From Melioribacter roseus (GTDB lineage: Bacteria > Bacteroidota > Ignavibacteria > Ignavibacteriales > Melioribacteraceae): 64,000 nt of DNA. The notes under the pieces were generated by a model. That model did no database searches. It saw only the letters and a program-made list of their open reading frames with translations, and was not told the DNA's origin. Numbering within the stretch: the stretch's first letter is position 1; each line of letters opens with the position of its first letter. Positions 286 through 48,387 of this stretch are shown here, piece after piece. Location: contig DYLP01000007.1 in the NCBI GenBank assembly GCA_020722005.1, positions 1 through 64,000 of the forward strand, read 5' to 3'. The position numbers were made by a program, and so were the translations under genes.

Positions 286-1041
286 TTATTTGCCCAGAAA
301 TTTCAGGATAGCGTTAATAATCACCAAAGGATGAGGCGGACAACCCGGAATAAACAAATCAATTTTTATTCTTTCAGTGAAAGTTCTGTCTATTTCTGTA
401 GAGTCAGCAAAAATTCCGCCGCTGATTGCACAGGCGCCTGTTGCAATAACAATTTTGGGTTCACCAATGCTTTGATAAGCGTCATCGAGTGCTTTTGCCA
501 TATTCTTTGTAATTGGTCCAGTCAATACAATTCCATCTGCATGACGCGGAGAAGCCACGAAATCAATTCCAAATCTTCCCATGTCAAAGTTAACATTCCC
601 ACATGCGTTTAATTCCATTTCGCAACCGTTGCAACCACCTGCAGATACCTGCCGCAATTTCAACGACCTCCCAAAAAGTTTATGGATTTCTTTCCTGGAT
701 TCTATTGCAATTCTCTGAAAATCATCATAACTGATGTCCGAGCTGACGATTAATTTATCCTTTGAATCACAACTAATTTTATAGTTGTTTGAAAACTTAA
801 TTGCGCCGCCTGATTTCTTTTCGCATTCACCACAAAAAATACATTTGCCAAGATCGATAGCAAGCGGATTTTTTGAAATTGCTTTTACAGGACAGGCTTG
901 AATTAAGTTTTCGATGTCTCCACCAAGTTTCGTTTCATCAATTACTGGAAAACCTTTATGTGTAGGTAATATTTTTGCATCGGCAATATTTTCTATTGCC
1001 TGATAGCCATGATTAATTCGAGCTTTTATTAAATCAAACAT
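286..1041 (-). CDS. Hydrogenase-4/complex I small subunit-like protein (HyfI/NuoB family) with ferredoxin domain, Ehr-type complex
   Basis: This is the electron-transfer small subunit of the membrane complex encoded at 286-7517. It has 251 residues. An N-terminal ferredoxin-like part holds C50, C67, C70 and C73, enough for one [4Fe-4S] cluster. The C-terminal NuoB/HycG-like part holds C137-x2-C140, C204 and C234, the ligands expected for the proximal [4Fe-4S] cluster. The CxxC spacing is that of group 4 hydrogenases, not the adjacent cysteine pair of NuoB. It is the last gene of the operon, 9 bases after the large subunit. The fusion of ferredoxin and small subunit is seen in related hydrogenase-like operons. 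The partner large subunit lacks the NiFe ligands, so hydrogenase activity should not be assumed. No clear terminator was seen downstream. Confidence 0.85.
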   Translation of the reverse strand: MFDLIKARINHGYQAIENIADAKILPTHKGFPVIDETKLGGDIENLIQACPVKAISKNPLAIDLGKCIFCGECEKKSGGAIKFSNNYKISCDSKDKLIVSSDISYDDFQRIAIESRKEIHKLFGRSLKLRQVSAGGCNGCEMELNACGNVNFDMGRFGIDFVASPRHADGIVLTGPITKNMAKALDDAYQSIGEPKIVIATGACAISGGIFADSTEIDRTFTERIKIDLFIPGCPPHPLVIINAILKFLGK

Positions 1042-1050
1042 AATTCCTCA

Positions 1051-2550
1051 CTATAAATCAAAACCACAATATGAAAGATTAAAACTCTTGTTGCAAAGCG
1101 GGAAATCGGATATACCCTGCTCTCTGACGGCAAGCGCAAGAGCAAACCAGTTATTAAACGACGGGTCTTTTATTTTTATCTTTTTAATTTTTCCGGTTTC
1201 ATCTGTAATTATGCAATGAACAATTTCGCCACGCCAGCCTTCTGTAATTGAAACGACGAAAGAATTTTTTTGCATTTCACCAATTTTCCCGTCATGATTT
1301 CCATCAGTGTAAATTTCCATCAAGTCATTTATTATTTTTGTCGACTGTTGAATTTCGACAAAACGAATATAAGCGCGTGCAAAAACATCACCGGAATCTA
1401 AAGTGAGTTTATGAATTGGGAAAAACTCATAAGCGCCGAATGGATGATCAACTCTCGCATCAATAGAAACCCCACTTGCACGTGCAGCCATTCCAACCAT
1501 TCCTATTGAATGTGCAATTTCTTTCGATACGATTCCGGTTTTTTCGAGTCGTTCCATAACCGAAGCCGAAGAAAACATAGCTTCTGCCGCTGTAACTGTT
1601 TCTTTCTCAACACGGTTAATTGTTTCGAGTAAAAATTTTGCTCTTTCAGAATCGATGTCAAAATTTACTCCGCCAATTTTCATCATATTTCTTCCGAATC
1701 GATTGCCGCAAATCGACATTGTAGTATTAATGACTGACGTTCGTAATGCTCCAAATATCGAATTGCCTGTTAGATATGCAATGTCATTAGATATTGCGGC
1801 TAAATCTCCCAGATGGACAGCAATTCTTTCCAGTTCAAGCATTATTAAGCGTATGATTTTTATTCTCTTTGAAATATCAATGTTCATCAGGGATTCGATA
1901 GCACGGATAAATGTGCCAGAATGAGCAATAACAGAGTCACCGGCAATGGATTCAGCAAGTTTTGTTTGATAGAATAAATCATTATTCTGCAAAAAAAGTT
2001 TTTCGACTCCACGATGCTGAAATCCAAGTTGGATTTCAAGATTATGAATAATTTCGCCGTGAGCTGAAAATCGAAAATGTCCTGGTTCAATAATTCCGGC
2101 ATGGATGGGACCAACGGCAACTTCATGGACTTCGCTGCCTGACATTTTAAAGAAATCATATTGTCTTTGTGTCTGGTCAACGCCTGCAATTCCTTGTCGT
2201 ACTGGTTTTAACCACGGATGTCCATCGGGAATAATTCCAAACTGCTCCGAAAGTTCTCTTTCAAATAGATGAGCTGAAGGAACTTCATTTGTAATTGAAG
2301 CGAAAGCTTCGCCCGGTCTAAGCGAAGACGATAATACAAAAAGCTTTGATAATTCGTCCTCAGCAAGGATACAGAAAATTCTGACAATGTCCTGCTCTTG
2401 CATTCCAAACAAATTTACAAGTCTTTTCCCTTCATGAATCTTAATAATAATACTCTCACGAAATTCGGAAAAATCAACGTATTTAATTTTATCTAACGAC
2501 AGATTTTGCAGATTTTTAATTTCGACCCAATTCACATTTTCTCCTGTCAT
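1051..2550 (-). CDS. Hydrogenase large subunit-like protein (HyfG/HycE family) lacking NiFe ligands, Ehr-type
   Basis: The 499 residues combine an N-terminal NuoC/30-kDa-like domain (about 1-150) and a NuoD/large-subunit domain, as in HycE and HyfG. The family signature GFQHRGVEKL is at 176-185. Active group 4 hydrogenases have a CGIC-type L1 motif and a DPCxxCxxR L2 motif. Here the L1 region (199-211) reads AESIAGDSVIAHS with no cysteine. The C-terminus is SFNLSYCGFDL, with only one cysteine (C495) near the L2 position. The NiFe centre therefore cannot be coordinated in the usual way. This matches what is known as energy-converting-hydrogenase-related (Ehr) complexes, whose catalytic reaction is not established. 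It overlaps the upstream HyfF-like gene by 4 bases, implying translational coupling. Confidence 0.85.
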   Translation of the reverse strand: MTGENVNWVEIKNLQNLSLDKIKYVDFSEFRESIIIKIHEGKRLVNLFGMQEQDIVRIFCILAEDELSKLFVLSSSLRPGEAFASITNEVPSAHLFERELSEQFGIIPDGHPWLKPVRQGIAGVDQTQRQYDFFKMSGSEVHEVAVGPIHAGIIEPGHFRFSAHGEIIHNLEIQLGFQHRGVEKLFLQNNDLFYQTKLAESIAGDSVIAHSGTFIRAIESLMNIDISKRIKIIRLIMLELERIAVHLGDLAAISNDIAYLTGNSIFGALRTSVINTTMSICGNRFGRNMMKIGGVNFDIDSERAKFLLETINRVEKETVTAAEAMFSSASVMERLEKTGIVSKEIAHSIGMVGMAARASGVSIDARVDHPFGAYEFFPIHKLTLDSGDVFARAYIRFVEIQQSTKIINDLMEIYTDGNHDGKIGEMQKNSFVVSITEGWRGEIVHCIITDETGKIKKIKIKDPSFNNWFALALAVREQGISDFPLCNKSFNLSYCGFDL

Positions 2551-3980
2551 CTTAAAAAGTTCGCCGCATTGTTAATTAACGCATTAATAAAAGCCGGAGA
2601 ATTGATACCGATAAAAAATAGTATTATCAGCAAAACAATCTGTGGAGTATATGCTTGCCATCCGAGATTATAATGTTTATCAGATAAAGCTGAATCATTA
2701 TTCCTGAACGCCATATTGAAGATTGAAGAAAAAATACCGAAGCCGATTATCACAATAAACAGGAAAAATAAAATTGCCAGCCAGCTAACTCCCTTTGCCC
2801 ATAAGGCTTTTATGATAAAAAACTTGCTGATAAAAATTGGGAATGGTGGCAAACCAATAATAGCGAGTGCAGAAATTATCCAGAGCCAACCTGTTTTTGG
2901 GTCAAGTTTAATTAAGTCTTTTATGTCGTCAATTTTTTTACTTTTGAATAAGTAAAGAATATTTCCGGACGTAAGAAACAAAGAAGCTTTAGCGAATGAA
3001 TGTGACAATGTATGCAGCATTGCCGCATAAATTCCATATTTGCCGAGTGAAATGCCAATGAATAAAATTCCCATATTTTCTATTGAAGAATAAGCGAGCA
3101 TACGTTTATAATTTTTCGTTCTGACCATAAAAACAGAGCTGACGAAAAGAGAAAGAAATCCTGTGAGTATAAAAAAGAAATTCGAGAAGTCCTCTAAATT
3201 TGTCTTAATGAAAATTTGTTGAACTCGTATCAATCCCAGAAGAGCTGAATTTAATAATGTTCCAGAAAGCATTGCCGAAACGGGTGACGGAGCTTCCGAA
3301 TGTGCGTCTGGTAGCCAGGCATGTATGGGCGCTATACCGATTTTTGTTCCGAGTCCTACAAACAAAAATGCAAAAGCTATTTTAAGCCAGAAAATGTTTA
3401 TAAGATTTGCATTATTGTACAAATCATTAAAATAAAGAGAATTAATCTGACGGGTGCCAATACTTAAGAAAATAATTCCAACGAAAGCAAGCGCTATTCC
3501 GATTGAGCAGATGTAAATATATTTCCATGCAGCTTCGAGTGAAGATTTTTTCTTTTCAAAATAAATAAGCAGTGCACTTGTCAAAGTTGTTGCCTCGACA
3601 AACACCCATAGCAAAGCTAAATGTGTAGATAAAATTACTCCCGACATCGCTGCAAGAAATAATAAAAGTTCTGCAACAAACACAGATTCTTTAACTGCAC
3701 TTAGATTGTGTTCTTTGAAATAAAAGGTCAGATATATGCTAACTCCCCCAAAAACGATGGTCATTACAAAAAAGAAAAACAATCCAATTTCATCAAATGC
3801 AAAATATTGCAACAGCCATTCAGGTAGGAAATAAAACTCGTAATGAGTAATCTTTTGAATGGAAACATATAGATAAGCAGCCGAAGTTAGTCCGAGATTG
3901 ATCCTATTGACTAACTTATTTTTTACGATTAATCCGATTATTGATAACAAAACCGGGAAAACTAAAACTAATCCAATCAT
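2547..3980 (-). CDS. Proton-pumping subunit, HyfF/NuoN-NuoM-like antiporter family
   Basis: A 477-residue membrane protein of the Mrp-antiporter/complex I family, predicted to form an ion-translocating channel in the inner membrane arm of the complex. It is hydrophobic throughout, with about 14 likely helices. The conserved glutamate of the family is E129 (in WVFVEATT) and the conserved lysine is K213 in GLGTKIGIAPIHAWLP. The neighbouring helix carries the typical PSPVSAMLSG stretch. The length is close to HyfF (about 520) and HycC-like proteins. It lies 2 bases after the HyfE-like gene and overlaps the large-subunit gene. The substrate ion (proton or sodium) cannot be told from the sequence. 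Confidence 0.88.
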   Translation of the reverse strand: MIGLVLVFPVLLSIIGLIVKNKLVNRINLGLTSAAYLYVSIQKITHYEFYFLPEWLLQYFAFDEIGLFFFFVMTIVFGGVSIYLTFYFKEHNLSAVKESVFVAELLLFLAAMSGVILSTHLALLWVFVEATTLTSALLIYFEKKKSSLEAAWKYIYICSIGIALAFVGIIFLSIGTRQINSLYFNDLYNNANLINIFWLKIAFAFLFVGLGTKIGIAPIHAWLPDAHSEAPSPVSAMLSGTLLNSALLGLIRVQQIFIKTNLEDFSNFFFILTGFLSLFVSSVFMVRTKNYKRMLAYSSIENMGILFIGISLGKYGIYAAMLHTLSHSFAKASLFLTSGNILYLFKSKKIDDIKDLIKLDPKTGWLWIISALAIIGLPPFPIFISKFFIIKALWAKGVSWLAILFFLFIVIIGFGIFSSIFNMAFRNNDSALSDKHYNLGWQAYTPQIVLLIILFFIGINSPAFINALINNAANFLR

Positions 3981-3982
3981 AA

Positions 3983-4618
3983 TTAATCCTTTAGCTCCGT
4001 CAAAATGTCAATTTTGTTTCCGTCGTACATCTGTTGAATTTTATTGAAGAAAATTGCAAAGAGAAAAATCCCAACAAATAAATCGAGTAGAACGCCAAGA
4101 TTAACAAGCATCGGCATTTCATTGGCAACAGATAAGGACAATAGAAAAATCCCATTTTCCAGAATCATGTAGCAGAGTATATGAGTGATAATTCTTTTCC
4201 TGTTTATGATTAAGAATAGGCTTGAGATAATCATAACAATTGAAATTCCGAAATAAAGCGGCTTAATTTCAGCATCGAGTCGAGCCGACCAAAAAGCTGC
4301 AAGAAATCCAAAGATAAAAATTATGCTTCCAATCAAGATTGAATAGAATTGAGAAATATAAGGGTCGATTTCACGGTTGATTTCGTTTTTCCTTATTACT
4401 GAAAGTAGAAAATAGGGGATTATAATTCCTTTGAGGATCAATGTTTCAAAACTGAGGAAAAGTATGTTGAGCCAGTTAATTTCTTTTATGTCAATAATTA
4501 CGAGAAAGAAAAGCAAAATGCCCTGCACGGCAAGAGTCTTTACGTAAGCTTCCAATCTACTAGCAGGGAAAATATAAAGAATTGTTGTGCCCAATAAAAT
4601 TATAATAAAGTCGTTCAT
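3983..4618 (-). CDS. Hydrogenase-4 component E-like membrane subunit (HyfE/NuoK-like)
   Basis: A small hydrophobic subunit of 211 residues with about six or seven transmembrane helices. It fits HyfE (about 216 residues), whose C-terminal half is related to NuoK and MrpC. The sequence has few sharp motifs; the call rests on length, helix pattern and its fixed place between the HyfC-like and HyfF-like genes, the order found in hyfBCEFGI operons. It overlaps the HyfC-like gene by 4 bases. Its expected role is part of the ion pathway next to the HyfF-like antiporter subunit. A separate HyfD-like gene is absent, as in several shorter group 4 operons. Confidence 0.78.
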   Translation of the reverse strand: MNDFIIILLGTTILYIFPASRLEAYVKTLAVQGILLFFLVIIDIKEINWLNILFLSFETLILKGIIIPYFLLSVIRKNEINREIDPYISQFYSILIGSIIFIFGFLAAFWSARLDAEIKPLYFGISIVMIISSLFLIINRKRIITHILCYMILENGIFLLSLSVANEMPMLVNLGVLLDLFVGIFLFAIFFNKIQQMYDGNKIDILTELKD

Positions 4619-5535
4619 TTAATTCCTCCGTGAGTGAAAAAAGCAACAATTGCAAACGAGGTAAGAGCTAATGCCGTCATCAGGAATAAAAACTGAGGCA
4701 CATGTGAAATTCTTGTGCGCGCAATCAACGATTCAACCAATCCGACACAAAGATAAATTAGAAATATTGAGACTAAACATAGCAATAGAGCCAGAGTTAT
4801 GGGGAGATTCAATGGTATCAGAAAGTTCGATATTAAAAGAGCAATCACTAACATCTTAATTTGAGATGCAAAAACCATAAATGCAAGATTTACTCCCGAG
4901 TAATCAAGGAGCATTACTTCGTGAATCATAGTTAATTCAAGGTGAGTATTTGGATCGTCAATCGGGACGCGGCTACCTTCTGCAAGCAGCATTATAAAAA
5001 GTGAAACGACGAATAATAATTTAATTAACAATGTGTAATTGGCTGAAGAATTCAGCATTATAAACATTTGCTCGAATGAGGTCTGGTTTGTTATAAATGC
5101 AAGCGTTCCTAACAGAACAAAAAATGCAGTTTCAACGATTGTCGAAAAAGTAACTTCGCGGTTTGCACCCATTCCTTCAAAGCTGCTGCCGGTATCGAGT
5201 GATGCAATTACGAGAAAAAATTTTGCCAGTCCAAGTGAATATGCAAAAATCACAAAGTCACTATCAAACTTTAATACTGCACCGATATAAGGAAACGGAG
5301 TAAAAAGTAATGCAAAAATTACCGCAGCAAGATTAATTGAAGGTGCAATTTCAAAAACGAATGAAGTTGTTGTACTGATTACCTCGCCTTTGCGGAACAA
5401 TTTCAATAAATCATAATACGGTTGAAATATTGAAGCGGCGTGTCTTCCTGCCCAGATTGCTTTAACTTTGTTAATAACGCCGACAAACATTGGCGCTAAG
5501 GAAAGCACCGCAAGAGTTAATATTATTTTAATCAT
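4615..5535 (-). CDS. Hydrogenase-4 component C-like, membrane anchor (HyfC/HycD/NuoH family)
   Basis: A 306-residue membrane subunit with about eight helices, related to NuoH. It would link the hydrophilic large/small subunit pair to the antiporter-like subunits. Family hallmarks are the early loop with AGRHAASIFQPYYDLLKLF and the conserved acidic loop EGSRVPIDDPNTHLELTMIHE, rich in the acidic and polar residues at the start of the E-channel. The length matches HycD and HyfC (307-322). It overlaps both neighbours by 4 bases, so the membrane subunits are almost certainly translated together. Confidence 0.9.
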   Translation of the reverse strand: MIKIILTLAVLSLAPMFVGVINKVKAIWAGRHAASIFQPYYDLLKLFRKGEVISTTTSFVFEIAPSINLAAVIFALLFTPFPYIGAVLKFDSDFVIFAYSLGLAKFFLVIASLDTGSSFEGMGANREVTFSTIVETAFFVLLGTLAFITNQTSFEQMFIMLNSSANYTLLIKLLFVVSLFIMLLAEGSRVPIDDPNTHLELTMIHEVMLLDYSGVNLAFMVFASQIKMLVIALLISNFLIPLNLPITLALLLCLVSIFLIYLCVGLVESLIARTRISHVPQFLFLMTALALTSFAIVAFFTHGGIK

Positions 5536-7517
5536 AATTCAACTCCAAGTATCCAGATCAGCAATACAAGCAAGAAAATCAAACCATAAATGATATATTG
5601 CTGCATTCTTCCGCTTTGTATCCAAGAAAAAAGGTCCATGAATTTTCTCAATGCCGAAATTATTGGTTGAATAATTAGCCCTTCTGAAACATCCAGCGAA
5701 CTGCTTTTTAACGATGCTTCCTTTGGAAAAAGTGCACTTTCTTTTTCTACATTAATTTCTATCGGAACTAATTTCGAAATTAACTGCATAAAAGGATGTG
5801 CATATGAGCCGCTCGTATATTGCATCTTACTCGTAACACCCTGATAACCGCAATCCCATGTCTTAAATTTTTTAATACTTCTTTTTGATATGAGTAGCTT
5901 TCTTAAATTATAAATCACAACTATAAACAGTAAGAAAATTGCAAGCGATATTGTAATTGAATTTATTAATGAGAGTAAATCAATATAACCGCTTAAAGTA
6001 AAATGAGGAGAAAACATCGGCAATACTTTTAGTAGTAAATAAATAATAGTAATCGGCGAAAGTCCGACAAGAAACATAAAGACCACCAAAATGCTCATTG
6101 GGAACAACATAAAATTATTCTTTTCTTCCGGCACTGTATGAAATTCAGAGCGACTCATTCCCAAGAAGGTCAATCCGAATAATTTAGTAAATGTTATCAT
6201 TGCCATTGATCCAATAAATGCCAAGCCTGAAATTCCGAGAATAGCCAGAATACTAACCCCAATATTTTGTATTGAAAAGCTTTTTGCTAGGCCGCTGTAA
6301 ATAAAAAATTCGCCAACGAATCCATTTAGTAATGGAAAACCGCTGATTGCAACTGTGGCAAACAAAAACATGATGCTCGTTTTAGGTAAATGTTTTGCTA
6401 GTCCACCGAGCAGGTCGATATTTCTTGTATGCGTTTGTGAATATACTACACCCGCACCATAAAACAAGGCGCTCTTGAAAGTAAAATGATTAAATGTATG
6501 GAGTAAAACGCCGAGGAAACCAAAACCAGCAACCAGATCATTTCCATAAGCCTTACCGATCATTCCCAGCCCAATTGCAATACCGATGATGCCAATATTT
6601 TCTATGCTTGAATAAGCAAGTAGTTTTTTGAAATCATGCTGAGAAATTGCATTGGCAATTCCAACTATTCCAGTTATTAATCCAATGAGTAGCACAAAAT
6701 AAGCAAGCGAAGCCGGTATAATATCCATCAGAAGGATAATTCTCAGAATTCCATAAATTCCCGTTTTAATCATGACGCCCGACATCAGAGCCGAAATGCT
6801 TGTCGGGGCTGCAGGATGTGCACGCGGAAGCCATGTGTGCATCGGTATAAATCCTGCTTTCGTTCCGAATCCGATGAAAAACAGCAGGAAGAAGAATATT
6901 GAAAGATGATTATACTTTATAAAAACTTCATTGAAAGAATTAAAATCTAACGAACCGGACAACGAAGATATCCATGCGAATCCAGCAATTAAAAATGCAA
7001 CTCCAATCTGCATTGAAGTAAAGTAATATATTCCGGCTTTTCTGACTTCTATCTTTTCGTTTTCGAATGTTACAAGAAAGAAGGAGGCAATCGACATTAA
7101 TTCCCAGCTGATTAAAAACAGAATTGCATCCTGAACAACAACAACAAATATCATTGATGTGCTCATTAATCCAAGGAAAAAATGATATGCGGAAAGTTGT
7201 GCATTTTTCCCAATGTACATTTTCATATATCCGGCTGAATAGCAGGATGCAAGGAAAGAACCGATTAAAATTATCAATGCAAAAAAAGCTGAAAGCGGAT
7301 CTAGGACAAAATTCACTTTGCCAATCGGGAAACTGAAAATATAACTCCAGATATATGATTCTCCGGAAATCAATGTGTTAAAAACAGCGGGAAGTGCGAG
7401 AATATTTGCTACGGCTGAAAAAACAATATAAATTTTTGATTTATAATTTTCGCCAATAAAAATGACAGCAATCCCCCCAAATAGAAAAAAGAGAGAACCA
7501 ATGAGAAATAGATCCAT
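5532..7517 (-). CDS. Proton-pumping subunit, HyfB/NuoL-like antiporter family
   Basis: A 661-residue inner membrane protein with about 16 helices, close to E. coli HyfB (672). The conserved glutamate is E139 in SWELMSIASF and the conserved lysine is K220 in GFGTKAGFIPMHTWLP. A second MSGVMIKTGIYG segment is typical of NuoL and HyfB. The C-terminal extension beyond the antiporter core, which carries a cytoplasmic loop with a WDCG-type motif, is normal for HyfB. It is the first structural gene of the complex. Its start codon overlaps the stop of the upstream regulator (TGATG). Expected role: ion translocation coupled to redox change in the hydrophilic arm. Confidence 0.9.
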   Translation of the reverse strand: MDLFLIGSLFFLFGGIAVIFIGENYKSKIYIVFSAVANILALPAVFNTLISGESYIWSYIFSFPIGKVNFVLDPLSAFFALIILIGSFLASCYSAGYMKMYIGKNAQLSAYHFFLGLMSTSMIFVVVVQDAILFLISWELMSIASFFLVTFENEKIEVRKAGIYYFTSMQIGVAFLIAGFAWISSLSGSLDFNSFNEVFIKYNHLSIFFFLLFFIGFGTKAGFIPMHTWLPRAHPAAPTSISALMSGVMIKTGIYGILRIILLMDIIPASLAYFVLLIGLITGIVGIANAISQHDFKKLLAYSSIENIGIIGIAIGLGMIGKAYGNDLVAGFGFLGVLLHTFNHFTFKSALFYGAGVVYSQTHTRNIDLLGGLAKHLPKTSIMFLFATVAISGFPLLNGFVGEFFIYSGLAKSFSIQNIGVSILAILGISGLAFIGSMAMITFTKLFGLTFLGMSRSEFHTVPEEKNNFMLFPMSILVVFMFLVGLSPITIIYLLLKVLPMFSPHFTLSGYIDLLSLINSITISLAIFLLFIVVIYNLRKLLISKRSIKKFKTWDCGYQGVTSKMQYTSGSYAHPFMQLISKLVPIEINVEKESALFPKEASLKSSSLDVSEGLIIQPIISALRKFMDLFSWIQSGRMQQYIIYGLIFLLVLLIWILGVEL

Positions 7518-8194
7518 CAGTTGTTCTCCTTTTTATTCCATTTGGTTTCTTCTGTGTCGATAAATTTAATTGCCTCTTCTTTGGGCGCATGATTTCTAAG
7601 CATATTCAAAAATTCTTCTTTCTGACAGAGGAATGAAATGCGGGATAAGATTTCAAGATGCATTTTGGGGCTCGCTGAAAGAAGGATAAACAATGTATGG
7701 ACATCTTGATTATCTAAAGCAGAAAAATCCAGTGGCGTTTCAAGATAACAAACTGATACGCTTGCAAATTTGGGATTCGTTATAATCGGATTGCGAGGAT
7801 GGGGAATTGCTATGCCTTTTCCAATTGACGTAGGCATTAATTCTTCACGACTCAATAGCGCCGATGTTATCTCATCCTTTGATAAGTCTTCGGGAGTTTT
7901 AATTTTATCGACTGCATTTTTTAATACTTGCGTTATATTGGTACCGGAAATTGTTTCAACAATTCCATTCGATGCAATTAATTGTGCAATGCTGATTTTG
8001 CTTATATTTTCAAAAAAGTGTGAAGATGATACTTCTATTTTATTGAGTAAAATCCATTCATTTATTTCAGCCCGATTAAACCGGTACTGATGATTGATCT
8101 TGTAGCAGGGAATCTTTTTGTCCTTAATCCATCTGTAAACAGTTTTTTCGTTTACATTTAGTAATTCGACAATATCTCTAATTTTTAAGTCCAT
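7517..8194 (-). CDS. Helix-turn-helix / PTS EIIA (nitrogen type) fusion regulator
   Basis: A 225-residue protein with two recognisable parts. Residues 4-50 form an excisionase/MerR-like helix-turn-helix (sequence around ELLNVNEKTVYRWIKDKK). Residues about 70-215 form a PtsN-type EIIA domain with the phosphorylatable histidine H132 in GIAIPHPRNP. EIIA-Ntr domains receive phosphate from a HPr-like carrier; fusion to a DNA-binding domain suggests a phosphorylation-controlled transcription regulator. It is the first gene of the minus-strand operon and its TGA overlaps the ATG of the HyfB-like gene, so it probably controls the Ehr complex and itself. No EI or HPr gene is in the window. The start at 8194 precedes the helix-turn-helix with nothing missing. 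Confidence 0.85.
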   Translation of the reverse strand: MDLKIRDIVELLNVNEKTVYRWIKDKKIPCYKINHQYRFNRAEINEWILLNKIEVSSSHFFENISKISIAQLIASNGIVETISGTNITQVLKNAVDKIKTPEDLSKDEITSALLSREELMPTSIGKGIAIPHPRNPIITNPKFASVSVCYLETPLDFSALDNQDVHTLFILLSASPKMHLEILSRISFLCQKEEFLNMLRNHAPKEEAIKFIDTEETKWNKKENN

Positions 8195-29033: not shown

Positions 29034-29612
29034 ATGCGACCTGCATTATTTCTGGATCGAGATGGAACGATAAATTACGACCCGGGTTATATAAGCAACC
29101 CGGATGTAGTTCGTTTGATAGAAGGCGTTGCCGAGAATCTGAAAAATCTCAAAGATAAATTTGGTTTCAAGCTAATTATAATTTCAAATCAAGCTGGAGT
29201 GGCAAAGGGTCTGATGACCGTCGAAGAGGTCGAAGAGGTTAATAAAAGAGTTAAAGATTTACTTAAACAATGTGGCGTAGTGATTGACGCCATCTACTAT
29301 TGTCCTTATCATCCCGATTTTGACCCGCCAGAAAAATCAAATTGTCGGAAACCTTCGCCGTTTATGATTTTACAAGCAGCTAAAGAGCATAATATTGATC
29401 TTTCTAAATCTTTTATGATTGGCGACAGAGCAAGCGATATCGAAGCCGGTATTAACGCCAAAATTAAAACAATATTGATTGCAAATGAAAACTATAAAAC
29501 GGAGATTGAAAACTTGATTACTGACGGTAAAAAGCCCAATTTTGTAGCTACTGATTTTTATGAAATCAACAAATTTATTACTCAAACTTTTGAGGAGGAT
29601 AATAATTGTTAA
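29034..29612 (+). CDS. HAD-IIIA phosphatase, GmhB-like (heptose-bisphosphate phosphatase)
   Basis: A 192-residue cytoplasmic HAD phosphatase. Motif I is FLDRDGTIN (about 6-14), motif II is IISNQAG, motif III includes the RKPSP lysine and motif IV is MIGDRASDIEAG. The insert with C/H residues (YYCPYHP and NCRKP) resembles the zinc loop of GmhB, which dephosphorylates D-glycero-D-manno-heptose 1,7-bisphosphate for LPS core synthesis. The histidinol-phosphatase branch of the same family is an alternative. It overlaps the start of the next lipoprotein gene by 7 bases. Confidence 0.85.
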   Translation: MRPALFLDRDGTINYDPGYISNPDVVRLIEGVAENLKNLKDKFGFKLIIISNQAGVAKGLMTVEEVEEVNKRVKDLLKQCGVVIDAIYYCPYHPDFDPPEKSNCRKPSPFMILQAAKEHNIDLSKSFMIGDRASDIEAGINAKIKTILIANENYKTEIENLITDGKKPNFVATDFYEINKFITQTFEEDNNC

Positions 29613-30796
29613 GAAAAATTAAACTGATGATTCCAGTTCTCTTCGGTTTTTTGTTGGTTTCATGTAATCAGGATCCGACCTCAGTAGGATACGATTTAAT
29701 AAAAGATGATGCCACTCTCTCATTTCACCAATTTGATACTGATTCTGTAAATGTGAAATTGAATTCATATACTTTTCAACGCAATCAATTGCTGGGTGTA
29801 GCCAGCAAATTGCTATTGGGACGGAACGAAAAATATGAAGCGCAGGCATTGCTGAGATACGAATTTTCATTGCCCGACTCAGTTATTACTCTTGTGCAGG
29901 AGAACAAGTTGAACATATCCGAAGCTTCAATTTATGTAAAACTGAAATATTATCTTGGGGACAAATCATTACCATTCGACTTTACTGTTCACCGAATAAC
30001 AAGCAACTGGAGTACAGCAGGTTTTAATACCGACAGTCTCAACTTGCTACAATATGAAAATCGAGATATTGCATTCGAAAAAGCAGTCGACGATACATCG
30101 ATTGCATTTAAGCTTGACCCTTCCGTAGTTCTCGAATGGATTAAGTTCAGTGTGGATTCCAACTCTGCCGAACCTAATTACGGAATTCTGATAAAGCCCA
30201 CGCCCGGCACAAAAAGGATCGTGGGTTTTAATGCATATCAACTTTTTACGGATACCGACCTACCATCTTTGACAATTATGTATGGCAGAAATGAAGTAAC
30301 CGATACACTTTCGACGCTTCCTTATATGGATCTACATGCCATTATAGGTGCACCGGAGACTTCAGACAACGACATCGTTTTACAGGGTGGTTTGTTCAAC
30401 AGAGGCTTTCTCTATTTCGACCTTGCCGGATTGCCTAAGAATATAATCATTAACAAAGCGGAACTTGAGCTATATGTAAACGAATTAAAAACTTTCGATG
30501 GCGAGCCTGCTTCCGATTCGATTATTGTTAAAGTGCTGGCAGACAGTACAAATAAAACTTATACATCCGACAGCACAATTACAACAGTATTATCGAGGAG
30601 TGGCGATAAATTCACGGGAGATATTGCCTGGATTGTTCAAAAATGGGTTTCCGATACTTCTTACACGAATCAGGGACTCGAATTGTATCTCGAAGACGAA
30701 AAAGAATCGCTTGCAACAATCTGGATTTATGGCACCCATTCAGTGAATAATTACAATCGCCCAAAACTAAAAATTACTTATTTAAAGAGTAGATAG
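29606..30796 (+). CDS. Lipoprotein with DNRLRE-type repeats, function unknown
   Basis: A 396-residue lipoprotein. The signal sequence ends in a lipobox VSC (C20) followed by NQDPTSVGYDL. The rest is rich in beta strands with two related segments (about 55-210 and 230-390). Each has a pattern of strands ending near YGILIKPT or YNRPKLKITYL, which fits the DNRLRE domain found in secreted and surface proteins. The start is a TTG at 29606, preceded by GAGGAGGA with 6-base spacing. It is followed after 3 bases by an outer-membrane protein gene, suggesting a surface role. The function is not known. Confidence 0.78.
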   Translation: MLRKIKLMIPVLFGFLLVSCNQDPTSVGYDLIKDDATLSFHQFDTDSVNVKLNSYTFQRNQLLGVASKLLLGRNEKYEAQALLRYEFSLPDSVITLVQENKLNISEASIYVKLKYYLGDKSLPFDFTVHRITSNWSTAGFNTDSLNLLQYENRDIAFEKAVDDTSIAFKLDPSVVLEWIKFSVDSNSAEPNYGILIKPTPGTKRIVGFNAYQLFTDTDLPSLTIMYGRNEVTDTLSTLPYMDLHAIIGAPETSDNDIVLQGGLFNRGFLYFDLAGLPKNIIINKAELELYVNELKTFDGEPASDSIIVKVLADSTNKTYTSDSTITTVLSRSGDKFTGDIAWIVQKWVSDTSYTNQGLELYLEDEKESLATIWIYGTHSVNNYNRPKLKITYLKSR

Positions 30797-37360: not shown

Positions 37361-40300
37361 ATGGATAAAAAAGATTTCTGGAAAAGTCTCAAAGATTATA
37401 ACGGTAGTGATGACCTACGTAAGATTAAAGAGAACGAATTTATGGAAGGGGTTACGGACGATTTTGAACTTGGTAAATTAACGAAACTTTCACGAAGAAA
37501 ATTTCTTGCACTGGCTTCTGTAACGGCTGCCATAGGCGCTACTGCGTGTACAGATTATCGCGATAAAGGGGAAATTGTACCTTATAACAAAAAACCAGAA
37601 CATCTTCTAATCGGAAAGGCAAATTACTATGCATCTTCCTGTACAGGCTGCTCGAACGCATGCGGCTTATTGATTAAAACAAGAGAGGGAAGACCAATAA
37701 AAGTGGACGGCAATCCCGAACATCCGATTACTCGCGGTAAAATTTGTGCTAAAGGTCAGGCTTCAATTTACAATTTATATGACCCGGAAAGACTCCAGTA
37801 CCCGATAATTAAAGGCAGAAGGTCGGACTGGAATCGAGTCGATTCTGAAATAATCGAGTCCTTGAAAAAGGCAACCGAAGAGAACAAAGAAATCGCTCTC
37901 TTTGCTGGAAGCGTTAAATCTCCTTCGGCTTTGAGAGTAATAGAGAATTTCAAGAATAAATATCCTACAGCAAAAATTTATTCTTATCAACTTTTCAATG
38001 AAAGTGCGCGTCAAAAAGCATGGGAAATTACTTACGGGACGAATGACTATCCTGCAATACTCTGGGAAAAAGCAGATGTGATTTTAAGTATCGAAGGCGA
38101 CTTTTTGGGCAATGAGGGTAATTACATCGAGAATACAAGAAAATTTTCGCAGGGAAGAAATATCGTTAATAGCGGTAATCTTAACAGATTGTATGTAGCT
38201 GAAAGCAGAATGAGTGTAACGGGTATGATGGCTGATTACAGACTTAGGTTGAGCCCGACTAAACAATTCAAATTTTTAATGGGATTGGTAAACAATCTCT
38301 ATAAAAAAGGAAGTAAAATTAAATTACCTTCATACTTCGAATCGTATCTCAATAAATTTGACCTCGCAGAATTTAAGAATAATGAGAAAGTAAAACTTCT
38401 GATAGATGACCTGCACTACAATAGAGGTAAATCTATTATCTATGCAGGAAGTAATTTACCCATCGAAATTCATCTGGCGGTGAATTTACTGAACGAAATT
38501 CTTGATAATACGGGTTTATACGATTCCAAATATTCATTTGTAAATTTACTGCCTCTATCGGAAATGAATGACATCAGGGATTTATGTGACAAAATGAAGG
38601 CAGGAAATGTTGGGGTGGTCATTCATTTAGATACAAATCCCGTTTTCCATCTGCCTTCAGATTACGACTACGTCGAGGCATTGAAAGCGGTTCCGACGGT
38701 AATTACAATTTCGAGTACCAAAAGTGAAACAGCAGACCTGAGCGACTATCTGCTTCCTGAAAGCACACAGTTCGAAAGCTGGGGCGATTATTATGCGCGC
38801 AAGGGTGTTTATGGATTGCAGCAGCCAGTTATTGCGCCAATATTTGATACACGCCAGAAAGAAGCTATCCTTTTAAGATGGTCGGAAGGAATAAATGATA
38901 AATTTGACGAAGGCAGGTATCGAGATTTTATTGCTGAAACGTGCAGAGAACAAATTTATAACAAAATTAAACCTGCATCAGATTTTAAAGCCTTCTGGTA
39001 TGCAGCCCTCCACGATGGGTTCATCGAATTTAATGAAAATGTTGATAAGCCTGTGTTTAATACTCGCGCTCTGGATGAACTCACGAAGGTTAAAATTCTG
39101 GAAGGTGATTACACATTAATCATTACCGAAAGTTATTTCTTAGGAGATGGAAGATATGCCAATAACGGTTGGCTGCAAGAATTGCCACATCCGGTTACGA
39201 AAGTTACTTGGGACAATTATTTATCGATATCTCCTGCAACAGCTAAGAAAATGAATCTTGATATGAACGATATGGCAGAGGTTTCGTATAATGGTATTAG
39301 TCTAAAACTACCCATATTTGTTCAACCCGGTATGAGTGATGATACTCTTCACATCGAAGCTGGATATGGCAGAAAAAGTGTAGGGGTGGTAGGTGAAGGA
39401 GTCGGGTTTAATCCCTTGGTATTTCTAACGAAAAATTCAAATAATTCACCTTTCGTACTGATAGGAGTGGATATTAAAAAAGCTGAAGGTAAATATACTC
39501 TATCTTCAACTCAGGAACATCATTCACTAGACGATACATTCGTAAAAGATTTTCATCGCATCAGAAAAATAATTCAGGAAGGTACACTGCCGCAGTACAG
39601 GAAAAATCATCATTTCTTGCATGAGGATAAAGACGAACTCTTCAGCATTACCGACGAGCATAAATACGATGGTGTAAAATGGGCTATGGCTATCGACCTT
39701 AATAAGTGTACGGGGTGTAATGTATGTGTTGTATCGTGCAGTGTCGAGAATAATGTACCTGTTGTTGGAAAAGATCAGGTAGCAAAAGGAAGGGAAATGC
39801 AGTGGATTCGAATAGACAGATACTATTCCGGAACACCAGATGAACCAATTGTAAGCAATCAACCCATGTTATGTCAGCATTGCGACAATGCCCCGTGTGA
39901 AAATGTATGTCCTGTTAATGCAACAAATCATAGCCCCGACGGTCTGAATCAAATGGTATATAATCGTTGCGTGGGGACGAGGTATTGTTCGAATAACTGT
40001 CCTTATAAAGTAAGAAGATTTAATTTTTATAACTACAGAGATCATTTCGCAGATGCATATTACGAAAACGAATTAACTTTTCTGGTAAATAATCCTGAAG
40101 TGACAGTACGTTCCAGAGGTGTAATGGAAAAATGCACTTTCTGTATTCAGAGAATAATGGAAGCGCGTTCAGAAGCAATAGCCAGAGGAGAAGAATTTAA
40201 GGGAGCTGGAATTCAAACTGCCTGTCAGCAAGCTTGTCCTTCACAAGCCATTGTATTCGGAAACGTCAACGACACGGATTCTGAAATTGCAAAATTGAGA

Positions 40301-40402
40301 AAGCACGATCTTGCATACCACGTACTGGAGGTTTTGAATGTTAAACCTAATATCTCATATTTAGCAAAAATCAGGAATATCCATACGGAGGAAATTCAGT
40401 GA
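37361..40402 (+). CDS. actB: Alternative complex III subunit ActB, molybdopterin-oxidoreductase-like plus iron-sulfur domain
   Basis: The large periplasmic iron-sulfur subunit, 1013 residues. A twin-arginine signal ([10 protein letters not shown], about 44-53) precedes the molybdopterin-oxidoreductase-like B1 domain. The C-terminal B2 ferredoxin domain starts about residue 775 with [11 protein letters not shown] and contains [15 protein letters not shown] and CTFCIQR. One cluster motif reads [12 protein letters not shown], with Thr where a second Cys would be, as expected for the [3Fe-4S] cluster of this family. The B1 domain also keeps C94, C97, C101 and C129 in the CxxCxxxC arrangement of a [4Fe-4S] site. 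Known ActB proteins are reported not to hold molybdenum. It overlaps actC by 4 bases (GTGA). Confidence 0.92.
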
Positions 40403-41766
40403 GCTCAGTCGAATATACACACGAAGTTTCGGTTATAGAAGGCAGACCAACGTTAAGATCTCTCGACGATTTAATTTCAAAACCGCTGGAGACCAGACCG
40501 GATAAAAAATTTTATATTGCGCTCTCCATTACACTGTCGATGCTTGGATTGTTTGTAATTGGTCTTATTGTAACATTTTACTACGGTATTGGAACCTGGG
40601 GTAATCAAATTCCTGTTGCATGGGGTTTCGGTATTGTGAATTTTGTGTTTTGGGTAGGAATTGGTCATGCAGGCACGTTGATTTCAGCAATACTTTTTTT
40701 GCTCAGGCAGAAGTGGCGTACGGGAATAGCCCGATTTGCAGAAGGTATGACCATATTTGCCGTGATGACAGCCGGTATTTTCCCGTTGATTCATACTGGC
40801 AGACCGTGGCTGGCAGGATATCTTTTTCCGTATCCAAATCAACACTCAATCTGGGTTAATTTTACTTCACCGCTCCTCTGGGATGTCTTTGCAGTCTCAA
40901 CTTATTTTACTGTTTCTTTAATTTTCTGGTACGTAGGTTTAATTCCAGATTTTGCCACTTTAAGAGAAAAGACTTCTAATAAAATTAAAAAATTAGTTTA
41001 TTCCATATTCAGTCTTGGCTGGAGATTTTCGAACCGACACTGGCAGCATTATGAAATGGTTTATTTAATCTTGGCTGGTTTTGCAACACCACTTGTCCTT
41101 TCTGTTCACACGATAGTAAGTTTCGATTTTGCAGTATCGATTTTACCGGGGTGGCATACTACAATATTCCCTCCGTATTTCGTTGCCGGTGCGGTTTTCT
41201 CTGGTTTTGCTATGGTGCAGAATGTTCTGATTTTCGTCAGAAAAATTTTCAATTACGAGCATATTATTACTATTGATACACTCGAAAGAATGAATAAAAT
41301 AATTTTGCTTACAGGATCGATGGTTGGGTATGCATATTCAATGGAATTTTTCATTGCATGGTATAGCGGAGTTCAACCTGAACAGTTTACATTTATTAAT
41401 CGAGCTTTTGGACCTTATGCCTGGGCTTACTGGATAATGGTATCATGTAATGTGCTGGCACCTCAGTTATTCTGGTTTAAAAAGATAAGAAGGACTATCC
41501 CGGTAATGTTTGTTATTGCTGTTTTTGTAAATATCGGCATGTGGTTCGAGCGATTTGTAATTGTTGTTACATCTTTGTCGAGAGATTATTTGCCTTCGAG
41601 CTGGCAGTATTTTACACCGAGTCTGGTTGACTTTATGATCTTAATCGGTAGCTTTGGCTTCTTTTTTACCTGGATTTTACTCTTTACGAAAGCACTGCCA
41701 GTCGTTTCAATTGCTGAAGTTAAAGCGGTTGTTGATGGTTCTCAACCTTCTCATAAGGAGCATTGA
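40399..41766 (+). CDS. actC: Alternative complex III subunit ActC, NrfD-like quinol-binding membrane protein
   Basis: An integral membrane subunit of the NrfD/PsrC family, 455 residues with about ten helices. It is thought to hold the quinol-oxidising site near the periplasmic side. Conserved features include [23 protein letters not shown] and the HW-containing [29 protein letters not shown] segment with histidines in helices. The start is GTG at 40399, overlapping the actB stop. It lies 3 bases before the actD-actE fusion gene, and ActF is its paralogue in the same operon. Confidence 0.93.
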
Positions 41767-41769
41767 CAA

Positions 41770-42909
41770 ATGAAAGATAAAATTTTATACGGATATGCAG
41801 CACTGTTTGATAGTCCTGATGATATAATTAATGCAACAGAAAAGACAGTAGAAGCAGGTTATAAAAAGTACGACGTTCATTCACCGTATCCAATTGACGG
41901 AATGCCAGAAGCAATGAAATTACCGCCCTCGAGGCTTGGATATGTAGCTCTTGTGGTTGGACTTTCAGGAGCATTGACAGCATTACTATTGATGTACTGG
42001 ATTTCCGCAGTCGACTATCCGATTGTGATTGGTGGAAAACCGCTCTTTTCTTTCCCCGCGTATGTGCCCGTTATATTTGAAGTTACGGTTTTATCGGCGT
42101 CGATAGCTACAGTGCTTGCCATGCTCTTTATCTTTTTCAAACTTCCGAATAACGCTCATCCATTGCACGGGACAGATTACATGAAACAAGTCGCGTCCGA
42201 TAAGTACGGTTTGTTTATTCATGCCGAAGATGAAAAGTTCAATGAACAGGAAGTTAGGAGATTTTTGGAATCATTACACGAAAAGGAGATAATTCCTGTC
42301 TATTACGACGAAAATGAGATTGCTTTTAAACCGAGGTTGCTCGAACCGAAATTTGTTATGTATCTTTTGGCTGTTGCAGTTATAACATCGGGGGCGACTT
42401 ATTTTACACTAAATAAATTATTGTATATGGTACCGTTTAATTGGATGATGGAGCAGGAAAAATTAACGCCACAATCGACAAGCGCCATTTTTGCAGACGG
42501 GTTTGGAATGAGACCGCCGGTCGAAGGAACGGTTGCCAGAGGCGAGGCGTTTTATCCATATAAAAATATGCCCGAAGAAGCGGGGAACTATTTGATAAAT
42601 CCTCTCCCGATGTCAAAAAAAGCATTAATGCTTGGCGAGAAAAAATATGATATTTATTGCAGCCCCTGTCATGGATATCACGGCGAAGGTGACAGTAGAT
42701 TAAGAGGTCAATTCCCGAATCCACCTTCGCTTCATTCAGAAAAAGTAAGGAACTGGAGTGACGGTAGAATTTTCCATGTTATTACAGAAGGACAAAACGC
42801 AATGCCGTCCTATTCAACGCAATTGAACGAAGAAGAAAGATGGGCGGTTATCAATTATATCAGAGCATTGCAAAGAGCTTTAAATGCCAGGGAAGCTGAT
42901 CTAAATTAA
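41770..42909 (+). CDS. Alternative complex III ActD-ActE fusion (DUF3341 plus monohaem cytochrome c)
   Basis: A single 379-residue reading frame joins two subunits that are separate in, for example, Rhodothermus. Residues about 1-180 are ActD (DUF3341), with two transmembrane helices (about 55-80 and 95-120) and the FKLPNNAHPLHG segment. After a third hydrophobic stretch (about 195-215), residues about 240-379 are an ActE-like cytochrome c with haem motif CSPCH at 297-301 and the methionine ligand in NAMPSY. No stop or frameshift lies between. The fusion fixes ActD and ActE in one copy each. It is 20 bases upstream of actF. Confidence 0.88.
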   Translation: MKDKILYGYAALFDSPDDIINATEKTVEAGYKKYDVHSPYPIDGMPEAMKLPPSRLGYVALVVGLSGALTALLLMYWISAVDYPIVIGGKPLFSFPAYVPVIFEVTVLSASIATVLAMLFIFFKLPNNAHPLHGTDYMKQVASDKYGLFIHAEDEKFNEQEVRRFLESLHEKEIIPVYYDENEIAFKPRLLEPKFVMYLLAVAVITSGATYFTLNKLLYMVPFNWMMEQEKLTPQSTSAIFADGFGMRPPVEGTVARGEAFYPYKNMPEEAGNYLINPLPMSKKALMLGEKKYDIYCSPCHGYHGEGDSRLRGQFPNPPSLHSEKVRNWSDGRIFHVITEGQNAMPSYSTQLNEEERWAVINYIRALQRALNAREADLN

Positions 42910-42929
42910 GTAAAAAATTCGGAATAATT

Positions 42930-44105
42930 ATGGATTTAGCTTATCAGAAAAAATATTTACCAACTAAGATTACAGTAGCGGGATATATTCTGCTTGTGTC
43001 GGGTTTTCTACTATCTGTAGTCGGATATTTTACCAACCTTGAAAGAAGCGCGTTTAATAATATTATTTTGCTGACATTCATTATAAGTGTAGGTATGGGA
43101 GCTCTGTTCTTTATTGGAACAGAATACCTTTCAGGCACAGTTTGGAGCGTGCCCTTTAGAAGAGTTGTAGAGTTTGTGGCTGCTTCAATTCTGCTCGTTC
43201 CATTTATCGCTTTGCCTATTCTTGCAAATATGGGATATTTATTTCACTGGATGCATCCGGAAGTTGTAGAAATGGACGAGCTTCTGAAAAGTAAAGCTCC
43301 GTATCTCAATGCTAAATTTTTCATCATTAGAGTGACTGTTTTTATTGCAATCTGGTGGTTGATCTATTTTCTTTTTACTCGAAATTCCTTAAAACAGGAC
43401 GAGACAAAGGACCAGAAATTAACAAAAACAAATACAAGGTTATCCGCTGTATTTATGCCATTCTTTGCAATCACAATTACGTTTACTGCAATTGACTGGT
43501 TGATGAGTCTGGAGCCGCACTGGTTTTCGACTATCTTCGGTGTTTATTATTTCTCAGGTTCGGTCCTTGCAGGATTAGCAACCTCTACAATCGCAATAAT
43601 ATTTTTATCTGAAAAAGGCTATCTGGTAAAAGGCATTTCGCAGGATAATTATTACAGTCTTGGAGCTTTACTTTTTGCCTTCACAAATTTCTGGGCATAT
43701 ATTGCTTTTTCACAGTACTTGTTGATCTGGTATGCAAATTTGCCTGAAGAAACTTTTTGGTTCCTCGAAAGATGGGAAGGAAGCTGGATGTACGTAAGTA
43801 TAGGATTAATATTTATAAGATTCGTTATACCGTATTTCGGACTCCTATCGCAACCGTCCAAAAAAGATCCAAAACGATTGGTTGTTATGTCGTTTATAGT
43901 TTTATTCGCTCATTACTACGACCTTTACTGGATGGTTATGCCAACTTATGCTAAAGACGGTTTTGTTTTTGGTTGGATAGAGATTGGATTTATAATACTT
44001 GCAGCTGGTCTGCTAATTTCTGTTTTCAGTTACATTGCAAATAAGTACAACATGGTCGCAATAGGCGACCCGAAATTAAAACGTGGAATAGATTTCAAAT
44101 TATAA
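42930..44105 (+). CDS. actF: Alternative complex III subunit ActF, second NrfD-like membrane subunit
   Basis: A 391-residue integral membrane protein with about ten helices, paralogous to ActC. In structures of alternative complex III it lies opposite ActC and may form a proton path, while its quinol-site role is doubtful. Features include EYLSGTVWSVPFRRVVEFVA, the short FHWMHPEVVEMDELLKSKAPYLN loop, and FAIDWLMS-like text at TAIDWLMSLEPHWFSTIFG. It follows the actD-actE gene and precedes the membrane cytochrome c by 2 bases. Confidence 0.92.
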   Translation: MDLAYQKKYLPTKITVAGYILLVSGFLLSVVGYFTNLERSAFNNIILLTFIISVGMGALFFIGTEYLSGTVWSVPFRRVVEFVAASILLVPFIALPILANMGYLFHWMHPEVVEMDELLKSKAPYLNAKFFIIRVTVFIAIWWLIYFLFTRNSLKQDETKDQKLTKTNTRLSAVFMPFFAITITFTAIDWLMSLEPHWFSTIFGVYYFSGSVLAGLATSTIAIIFLSEKGYLVKGISQDNYYSLGALLFAFTNFWAYIAFSQYLLIWYANLPEETFWFLERWEGSWMYVSIGLIFIRFVIPYFGLLSQPSKKDPKRLVVMSFIVLFAHYYDLYWMVMPTYAKDGFVFGWIEIGFIILAAGLLISVFSYIANKYNMVAIGDPKLKRGIDFKL

Positions 44106-44107
44106 TT

Positions 44108-45034
44108 ATGGAAAAAAAGACAAAATTTGAAGACGAAATTAAATTCAGAGAACTTCTGAAAAATCCTGTGCGTTTGTTCGGATGGTTCTTCCCTTATTTC
44201 TTATTGATTCTTTTGATCGGTGGTATTTATTTCGGTCAGAATCTAATAAATATATCGTTTAACGAAATGCCAGTAGGACTAAAAGATAGTTCTATTGTAA
44301 AAAAAGAAATTGTTGAGACTAAGGGAGGTATAATGCCGGCAGTCGATCTGAAAAAAGTCAAATCGCCTTCGAATGAATTAATAACGCGTGGCAAAGAACT
44401 TTATGACGCAAATTGTCAGTCGTGTCACGGGTCCGAAGGACTTGGTGATGGTCCTGCAGGTATAGCACTTAATCCAAAACCCCGCAATTTTCATCAGACC
44501 GATGGATGGACAAACGGCAGAACAATTGATATGATGTATAAAACATTGCAGGAGGGTATAATTAAAAACGGAATGGCAGCCTACGAGTACCTGCCACCTG
44601 AAGATAGATTTGCTATTATCCATTATATCCGAACTTTTGCAGATTTTCCACCTATAACAGACGAAGAATTAAATAATATCGATAACTCTTATAAGATAAC
44701 AGCCGGTATGGAAATTCCGAATAAAATTCCTGTTAACAAAGCAATTGATATTCTCTCTAAAGAATACCAAACGTTCGTGGATAGAACAACTGAATTAGCT
44801 AAAAAAATAAAAGAGTCGAAATCGAATAATTATATTGCTGAAATGATTGTTGAACAGTCCACTGACCTGAATAAACTGGCTTATGTATTTTTATCGGACA
44901 GGAATATTACATATGAAAAATTCAAGACGATTATTAATAACTACCCGCTGTCGATTGGATTGAAGCCGGGAATCGAAAAAGTTGATGAAGACGACTTGAA
45001 CAAGATCTATGAATACTTAAAATCGATGAGTTGA
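44108..45034 (+). CDS. Membrane-anchored monohaem cytochrome c
   Basis: A 308-residue cytochrome anchored by one N-terminal helix (about 25-45). The cytochrome domain (about 90-180) has the haem motif CQSCH at 103-107 and a candidate Met ligand at M156 (KNGMAAYEY). The C-terminal part (about 195-308) is helical, with no motif I recognise. The likely role is to carry electrons from alternative complex III to the oxidase, which lacks a fused haem c in subunit II. It resembles ActE-type proteins but is longer. It lies between actF and the sco gene. Confidence 0.85.
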   Translation: MEKKTKFEDEIKFRELLKNPVRLFGWFFPYFLLILLIGGIYFGQNLINISFNEMPVGLKDSSIVKKEIVETKGGIMPAVDLKKVKSPSNELITRGKELYDANCQSCHGSEGLGDGPAGIALNPKPRNFHQTDGWTNGRTIDMMYKTLQEGIIKNGMAAYEYLPPEDRFAIIHYIRTFADFPPITDEELNNIDNSYKITAGMEIPNKIPVNKAIDILSKEYQTFVDRTTELAKKIKESKSNNYIAEMIVEQSTDLNKLAYVFLSDRNITYEKFKTIINNYPLSIGLKPGIEKVDEDDLNKIYEYLKSMS

Positions 45035-45038
45035 TAAA

Positions 45039-45809: not shown

Positions 45810-45815
45810 AATAAC

Positions 45816-48087: not shown

Positions 48088-48096
48088 GGCATCGAA

Positions 48097-48378: not shown

Positions 48379-48387
48379 GGTCTTAAC

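Follow-up and report, generated by a model that had tools for sequence, protein, structure and literature searches.

What does a membrane complex built like a group 4 hydrogenase do once its hydrogen-activating site is gone? This question is raised by an operon of Melioribacter roseus (GCA_020722005.1), which occupies positions 286-8194 of the minus strand of a 64,000-nucleotide stretch of contig DYLP01000007.1 (contig C26 of the 2.66 Mb source genome), hereafter the window. Judged from its genes and those of its relatives, the complex belongs to the known and widespread Ehr (Ech/energy-converting hydrogenase-related) family, members of which lack NiFe ligands and have already been described as complexes of unknown function (PMC6349859, PMC10284858, PMC7304191, PMC3569383). 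We propose, at a probability of about 45%, that the Ehr complex is a formate-hydrogenlyase-type, complex I-like ion pump fed at the iron-sulfur cluster N6b by a small soluble carrier and controlled by an EIIA protein. What appears to be new is the replacement of the quinone-binding pair, the recurrent loss of cluster N6a, the existence of complexes without cluster N2, the EIIA lead gene, and the adjacency of SulP and DabA genes; the literature searched, the coverage of which is partial, contained no report of complexes without N2, of N6a being lost repeatedly, or of a connection of Ehr with EIIA or SulP.

The empty NiFe site and the intact pump

A first, sequence-only reading of the window had described six structural genes in hyfBCEFGI order at 286-7517, with the pump intact and the hydrogen-activating site gone. 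All six were recovered as intact, overlapping or abutting open reading frames with significant family matches (HyfE falling under the Pfam cut-off), and the operon proved to be one gene longer. Its seven head-to-tail genes, overlapping or a few bases apart, follow the order HTH_17+PTS_EIIA_2, HyfB, HyfC, HyfE, HyfF, HyfG, HyfI, and the additional leading gene is a member of the module in many phyla.

Aligned with L036 and L037, genuine group 4 enzymes from the window's own taxonomic order (ERICGICSTSH ... DPCYCC), the four NiFe ligand columns of the large subunit change from Cys to Ala and Ser in L1 and from Cys to Ser and Gly in L2. The L1 region that had been read as free of cysteine, AESIAGDSVIAHS at residues 199-211 of the 499-residue protein, was placed correctly. 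The single cysteine that had been assigned to the L2 position does exist near the C-terminus (CNKSFNLSYCGFDL), but this Cys495 sits between the two ligand columns and is Ser in many relatives; since the columns themselves hold Ser493 and Gly496, none of the four ligands remains. HypD, which is needed for NiFe assembly, was undetected in the source genome (99.35% complete) by a search that recovers the gene from controls such as E. coli. The AlphaFold2 (AF2) model of the large subunit (predicted local distance difference test, pLDDT, 88; predicted TM-score, pTM, 0.89) has its best Foldseek match in the PDB with HycE (7z0s_E; TMq 0.84, E 2.8e-29), followed by E. coli NuoCD. By its ligands and by the HypD search, the complex is predicted to be no [NiFe] group 4 hydrogenase.

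The pump residues, on the other hand, are conserved. HyfB E139, K220, K251, K297, K348 and E403 occur in at least 99% of the relatives, HyfF E129, K213, K292, E301 and K331 are also conserved among them, and HyfC has 20 charged columns with a conservation of at least 95%. Two antiporter-like subunits, combined with NuoH- and NuoK-type subunits with intact charged residues, are thus predicted to form an intact pump.

Placement and distribution of the Ehr family

The window has what defines an Ehr complex, namely a large subunit of the group 4/NuoD superfamily without NiFe cysteines and antiporter-, NuoH- and NuoK-like subunits encoded in one operon. It falls together with Geomonas limicola (L128, Geobacteraceae) in a clade of 91 rows, apart from the hydrogenases L036 and L037 (97% support in the Shimodaira-Hasegawa approximate likelihood ratio test, SH-aLRT), on a tree obtained with a quick method, the deep branches of which are unsure. 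This clade with its many non-NiFe relatives, the HycE-like fold and the HypD result agree with the earlier assignment to Ehr, in which the substrate had been left open.

Relatives were found with an alignment query across species genomes, and their operons were then read by six-frame hidden Markov model searches. The scan gave at least 576 confirmed relatives, of which 80 were kept, and these span Ignavibacteria, Spirochaetes, Planctomycetes, Verrucomicrobia, Acidobacteria (Geothrix), Geobacteraceae, Myxococcota, Gastranaerophilales and others, the nearest named relatives being metagenome-assembled genomes (MAGs) of Ignavibacteriales. Within the phylum of the window, Ehr genes are carried by 17 of 395 genomes, and within Planctomycetota by 51 of 392. 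An Ehr complex without any small subunit, as considered for four Planctomycetota loci with no hyfI after hyfG (L229-L232), was rejected, because the genome search finds hyfI in each genome (G745, G681, G798, G648), unlinked from the rest of the operon.

The Geobacteraceae complex EhrABCDLS (GSU0739-0745; L128) has in common with the window the subunit set and order, the empty NiFe cysteine columns, the signatures ExxAGD[ST] in L1 and NKSFNLSYxGxDL at the C-terminus, and the EIIA gene in first position; the window differs in having one HyfB instead of two and in lacking N6a, which is present in G. limicola. E. coli Hyc (7z0s) and Hyf also have the same subunit set and gene order, a similar large-subunit fold and a hydrogenase-type EPGHF loop, whereas the window has, besides the empty NiFe site and the undetected HypD, no linked formate dehydrogenase and no separate HycF/HyfH, its ferredoxin domain being fused to the small subunit.

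A pocket of neither the NiFe nor the quinone type

In the NuoD proteins of the source genome, the beta-loop reads GPQHPSTHG or GPQHPATHG and the helix DRMDY or DRLDY, and the second His of the loop and the Tyr of the helix are the residues known to hold the quinone head group (T. thermophilus His38 and Tyr87). Both NuoD proteins keep this pair. The Ehr large subunit has a hydrogenase-type beta-loop (GPIHAGIIEPGHF) and the helix ESIAGD, so that the His38 and Tyr87 columns are occupied by Ile154 and Gly204. Ile154, Glu155, Gly204, Asp205, Asn487, Lys488, Ser493, Tyr494, Gly496, Asp498 and Leu499 are invariant in 74 diverse Ehr sequences, and the putative pocket residues Glu155, Glu200, Asp205, His210, Lys488, Ser493 and the C-terminal Asp-Leu are strongly conserved. 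As the NiFe ligands and the quinone His/Tyr pair are both replaced, the vacated pocket appears to be conserved as a site of neither known type.

These observations bear on the possibility that the complex is a ferredoxin:menaquinone oxidoreductase, like complex I minus its NADH module. A ferredoxin donor has its precedent in photosynthetic NDH-1, and menaquinol would be useful to this organism, given the presence of MenA and of an alternative complex III with a cytochrome c oxidase cluster in the window. Among Ehr-bearing genomes, UbiA was found in 29 of 30, in a search that covers unrelated enzymes, and MenA over the cut-off in 3 of 27, in a search that misses other pathways and in which Geomonas scores none. 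Considering that both head-group residues are replaced throughout the family, that the source genome already has two NuoD-bearing clusters, and that Ehr-bearing Riflemargulisbacteria are without identified quinone pathways (PMC6349859), we regard this function as improbable. Complex I itself, represented by the two clusters of the source genome (L039, L040), has in common with the window a homologous core, the pump residues and the clusters N6b and N2, while the window lacks the NADH module and the quinone pair.

Loss of the outer relay

In NuoI, the ligands of N6a are the first three Cys of motif 1 together with the last Cys of motif 2, and those of N6b are the first three Cys of motif 2 together with the last Cys of motif 1. 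The small subunit of the window (AF2 model with pLDDT 87 and pTM 0.85; NuoI/HycF-type match at residues 58-105) retains a full set of N6b-type ligands by this rule, while all four N6a-type ligands around it are gone together; N2 is also retained, with a CxxC arrangement as in hydrogenases instead of the CC of complex I. The complex I-type N6a-N6b-N2 wire is therefore incomplete, and the earlier statement that all proton-channel and iron-sulfur features were kept is right for the pump residues and fails for N6a. The window complex is, by its ligand pattern, an N6a-less variant of Ehr.

This loss is not confined to the window. Complete N6a, N6b and N2 clusters were counted in 92/144, 140/144 and 135/143 Ehr small subunits, respectively, with five rows assigned by hand (in a group of four of these, one row shows one additional change in N6b, and a different row one change in N2). 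The large-subunit tree, obtained from 148 rows with a quick method, requires at least 20 state changes for N6a and at least three each for N2 and N6b. In complex I, N6a adjoins the entry side and N6b adjoins N2, so it is the outer relay that would have been shed, and the counts for N6b and N2 suggest that selection maintains the short wire between them in most Ehr complexes, that of the window among them.

The state of the outer relay also concerns the proposal, made for Riflemargulisbacteria (PMC6349859), that Ehr and a formate dehydrogenase form one complex (FDH-Ehr), with Ehr as the membrane half. Ehr proteins of Geobacter are more abundant on formate (PMC7894505), which would fit such a role. 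However, no fdh gene occurs in or beside the window operon or among the recurrent neighbours of the approximately 90 loci of the first survey, and the N6a relay that would take electrons from an added dehydrogenase is gone in the window; a formate dehydrogenase partnership is thus very improbable here.

Complexes without N2

Eight Ehr complexes of at least two lineages lack N2. Six of them carry Asp-Cys/Ala-Asp-Asn (L054, L099, L111, L124, L233, L234b), and two planctomycete complexes have unrelated replacements, Asn-Glu-Glu-Trp in L093 and Asp-Ala-Ser in L227 (at the end of a contig), while keeping all eight cysteines of the ferredoxin domain. Of the charged columns that are at least 95% conserved in N2-bearing complexes, those unchanged in all five N2-less sequences of the first survey amount to 14/15 in HyfB, 20/20 in HyfC, 3/3 in HyfE, 10/11 in HyfF and 41/42 in HyfG. 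The N2-less gene is the sole Ehr-type small subunit in seven genomes (G029, G442, G443, G444, G445, G828, G761), while G751 has a second, tandem Ehr operon with intact N2. Considering that nearly all charged columns are kept, mostly by complexes with no other small subunit, the pump and the pocket seem to outlive the wire.

These natural complexes argue for the principal alternative, a regulated non-redox ion translocator, in which the iron-sulfur clusters sense redox state or iron, the EIIA protein reports phosphoenolpyruvate (PEP) or carbon status, and a ligand in the pocket gates the antiporter-like arm. The intact ferredoxin cysteines of L093 and L227, the EIIA gene at the head of 62% of the operons and the SulP gene adjoining in about six lineages are also consistent with it. 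On the other hand, N2 and N6b are kept in more than 90% of the family, including the window, and the N2-less groups may be specialised exceptions, so that we consider a non-redox translocator somewhat unlikely.

Tandem Ehr operon pairs were seen in L234 (G751) and L126. In L234, one operon lacks the ferredoxin clusters and has N2, and the other has N6b and lacks N2, as if they were complementary. A divergent HyfC-E-F-G-I-B-like operon (L038:4000-11319; G056) encodes a small subunit without the N2 cysteines and without a ferredoxin domain, and a large subunit that keeps one L1-type Cys; it is possibly a complex I relative without a redox centre.

The EIIA lead gene and transporter neighbours

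The first protein of the operon combines an excisionase/MerR-like HTH_17 domain with PTS_EIIA_2, that is, a helix-turn-helix (HTH) with an EIIA domain of the phosphotransferase system (PTS), and the stop of its gene overlaps the start of hyfB by one base. The protein has a putative phosphorylatable His132 in GKGIAIPHPRNP (codon 7799-7801), the PH active-site motif is found in 80 of 81 EIIA homologues, and the genes for HPr and EI lie side by side in the source genome (G000:C56). With its EIIA_2 domain, this histidine, and EI and HPr encoded in the genome, it is predicted to be a PtsN-like EIIA regulator. Of the 112 operons with enough upstream sequence, 69 have an EIIA gene immediately before hyfB, and they do so across phyla. 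Among possible partner genes, this regulator is the one to begin with.

In 11/148 rows, a gene for a SulP anion transporter is found inside the Ehr operon or no more than 400 bases away from it. This adjacency requires six changes on the tree, corresponding to about six independent lineages, against 1.6 expected from the SulP density further away (p ~0.005). In a second Ehr subfamily, a SulP-STAS-EIIA fusion stands between hyfG and hyfI (L157:6921-9137). The SulP-EIIA fusion as an Ehr-specific 'Rosetta stone' was rejected, as, of four such fusions detected in Bacteroidota, three lie away from Ehr; the link of the fusion to Ehr is suggestive. DabA adjoins Ehr in L127 and L237, and the cluster L127:926-12368, from a Planctomycetaceae MAG, in which DabA, a SulP-PII fusion and two NuoL-like proteins are encoded next to the large and small subunits of Ehr, resembles a cluster for inorganic-carbon uptake.

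The NuoL-like subunit of DAB (DabA/DabB) can drive the hydration of CO2 without redox chemistry (PMC13144422), and Ehr might likewise be part of anion or inorganic-carbon uptake, in which the pocket, or a SulP or DAB transporter as partner, would use the ion motive force. DAB differs from the window operon by the presence of DabA and by an unrelated catalytic subunit. The recurrent SulP neighbours, once within the operon, and the two DabA neighbours speak for this role. Against it, the SulP enrichment is modest, the other three fusions lie away from Ehr, and SulP and DabA neighbours are absent at the window operon, in a genome without a close match to the SulP-EIIA query. We therefore hold an uptake function to be quite improbable for this complex.

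A proposed mechanism

Based on the retained clusters, we hypothesize that, as the outer relay N6a is missing, N6b would itself be the docking site of a small, soluble carrier of low potential, either ferredoxin or flavodoxin. The electron would then move from N6b through N2 to an acceptor in the vacated, conserved pocket, and this transfer may drive conformational ion pumping. The HTH-EIIA protein, phosphorylated from PEP through EI and HPr, could set the synthesis or the activity of the complex. A comparable case is Mbx/Mbs, the sulfane-sulfur reductase of Pyrococcus, which is derived from group 4, has an altered NiFe site and uses a low-potential donor; the window operon, by contrast, has no Mrp-type module.

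Several points weigh against a carrier-fed pump. The named pocket residues are assigned to the pocket by homology, and no donor or acceptor gene is linked to the operon within the window. Furthermore, N2 appears to offer the sole path from N6b to the pocket, yet 8/143 complexes of at least two lineages have lost it while their pump and pocket show no decay, an outcome not expected of redox-driven pumping. A broader view, which we think unlikely, is that Ehr complexes are complex I relatives with the pump cut loose from electron transfer, in which the iron-sulfur wire has been pruned (at N6a some 20 times and at N2 in two or more lineages), the pocket has become a site for a non-redox ligand, and PTS phosphorylation and anion or inorganic-carbon transporters form the working context.

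Ehr complexes are found in many bacterial phyla, among them Geobacter relatives, Geothrix, Planctomycetes, Bacteroidota and Gastranaerophilales, and the comparative data constrain their function: the pocket is apparently of neither the NiFe nor the quinone type, electrons, if any, would enter at N6b, and N2 seems dispensable in some lineages. If the N2-less complexes pump, complex I-type coupling could be studied apart from redox chemistry.

Features of the operon and its surroundings

Table 1. Coordinates of the genes and sites of the Ehr operon in the window.
Feature	Position	Strand	Evidence and remarks
HTH_17 + PTS_EIIA_2 protein, 225 aa	7517..8194	-	Pfam HTH_17 3e-14, PTS_EIIA_2 5.6e-26; first gene of the operon
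HyfB-like (NuoL/MrpA-type) antiporter subunit, 661 aa	5532..7517	-	NCBIfam hydrogenase 4 subunit B 6.5e-150
HyfC-like (NuoH-type) subunit, 306 aa	4615..5535	-	Pfam NADHdh 9.1e-31
HyfE-like (NuoK-containing) subunit, 211 aa	3983..4618	-	NCBIfam hydrogenase 4 membrane subunit 1.5e-16
HyfF-like (NuoM/N-type) antiporter subunit, 477 aa	2547..3980	-	NCBIfam hydrogenase 4 subunit F 2.4e-93
HyfG/EhrL-like large subunit, 30 kDa + 49 kDa fusion, 499 aa	1051..2550	-	Pfam Complex1_49kDa 1.8e-38, Complex1_30kDa 8.7e-7
Former L1 NiFe motif, residues 199-211	1918..1956	-	Ligand columns Ala203, Ser206; Gly204 in the complex I Tyr87 column; Asp205 invariant
Former L2 motif and C-terminus, residues 486-499	1054..1095	-	Ligand columns Ser493, Gly496
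HyfI/EhrS-like small subunit, N-terminal ferredoxin domain + NuoB-type domain, 251 aa	286..1041	-	Pfam Oxidored_q6 4.7e-29
Retained N6b-type [4Fe-4S] site, Cys50, Cys67, Cys70, Cys73	823..894	-	Predicted by the NuoI rule
Retained N2-type (proximal) [4Fe-4S] site, Cys137, Cys140, Cys204, Cys234	340..633	-	

The operon is flanked by a tRNA-Val gene (29-103) past its 3' end and by a divergent thrS upstream. Further along the window, two proteins without a Pfam match at 1e-5 are encoded at 29606-30796 (396 aa) and 42930-44105 (391 aa). The latter lies inside a plus-strand cluster (37361-49008) that encodes an alternative complex III (molybdopterin-like iron-sulfur subunit, NrfD-type subunit, ActD and cytochrome c subunits) followed by COX1 and COX2, and this cluster, not far from the Ehr operon, is predicted to provide a respiratory chain of the aerobic type.

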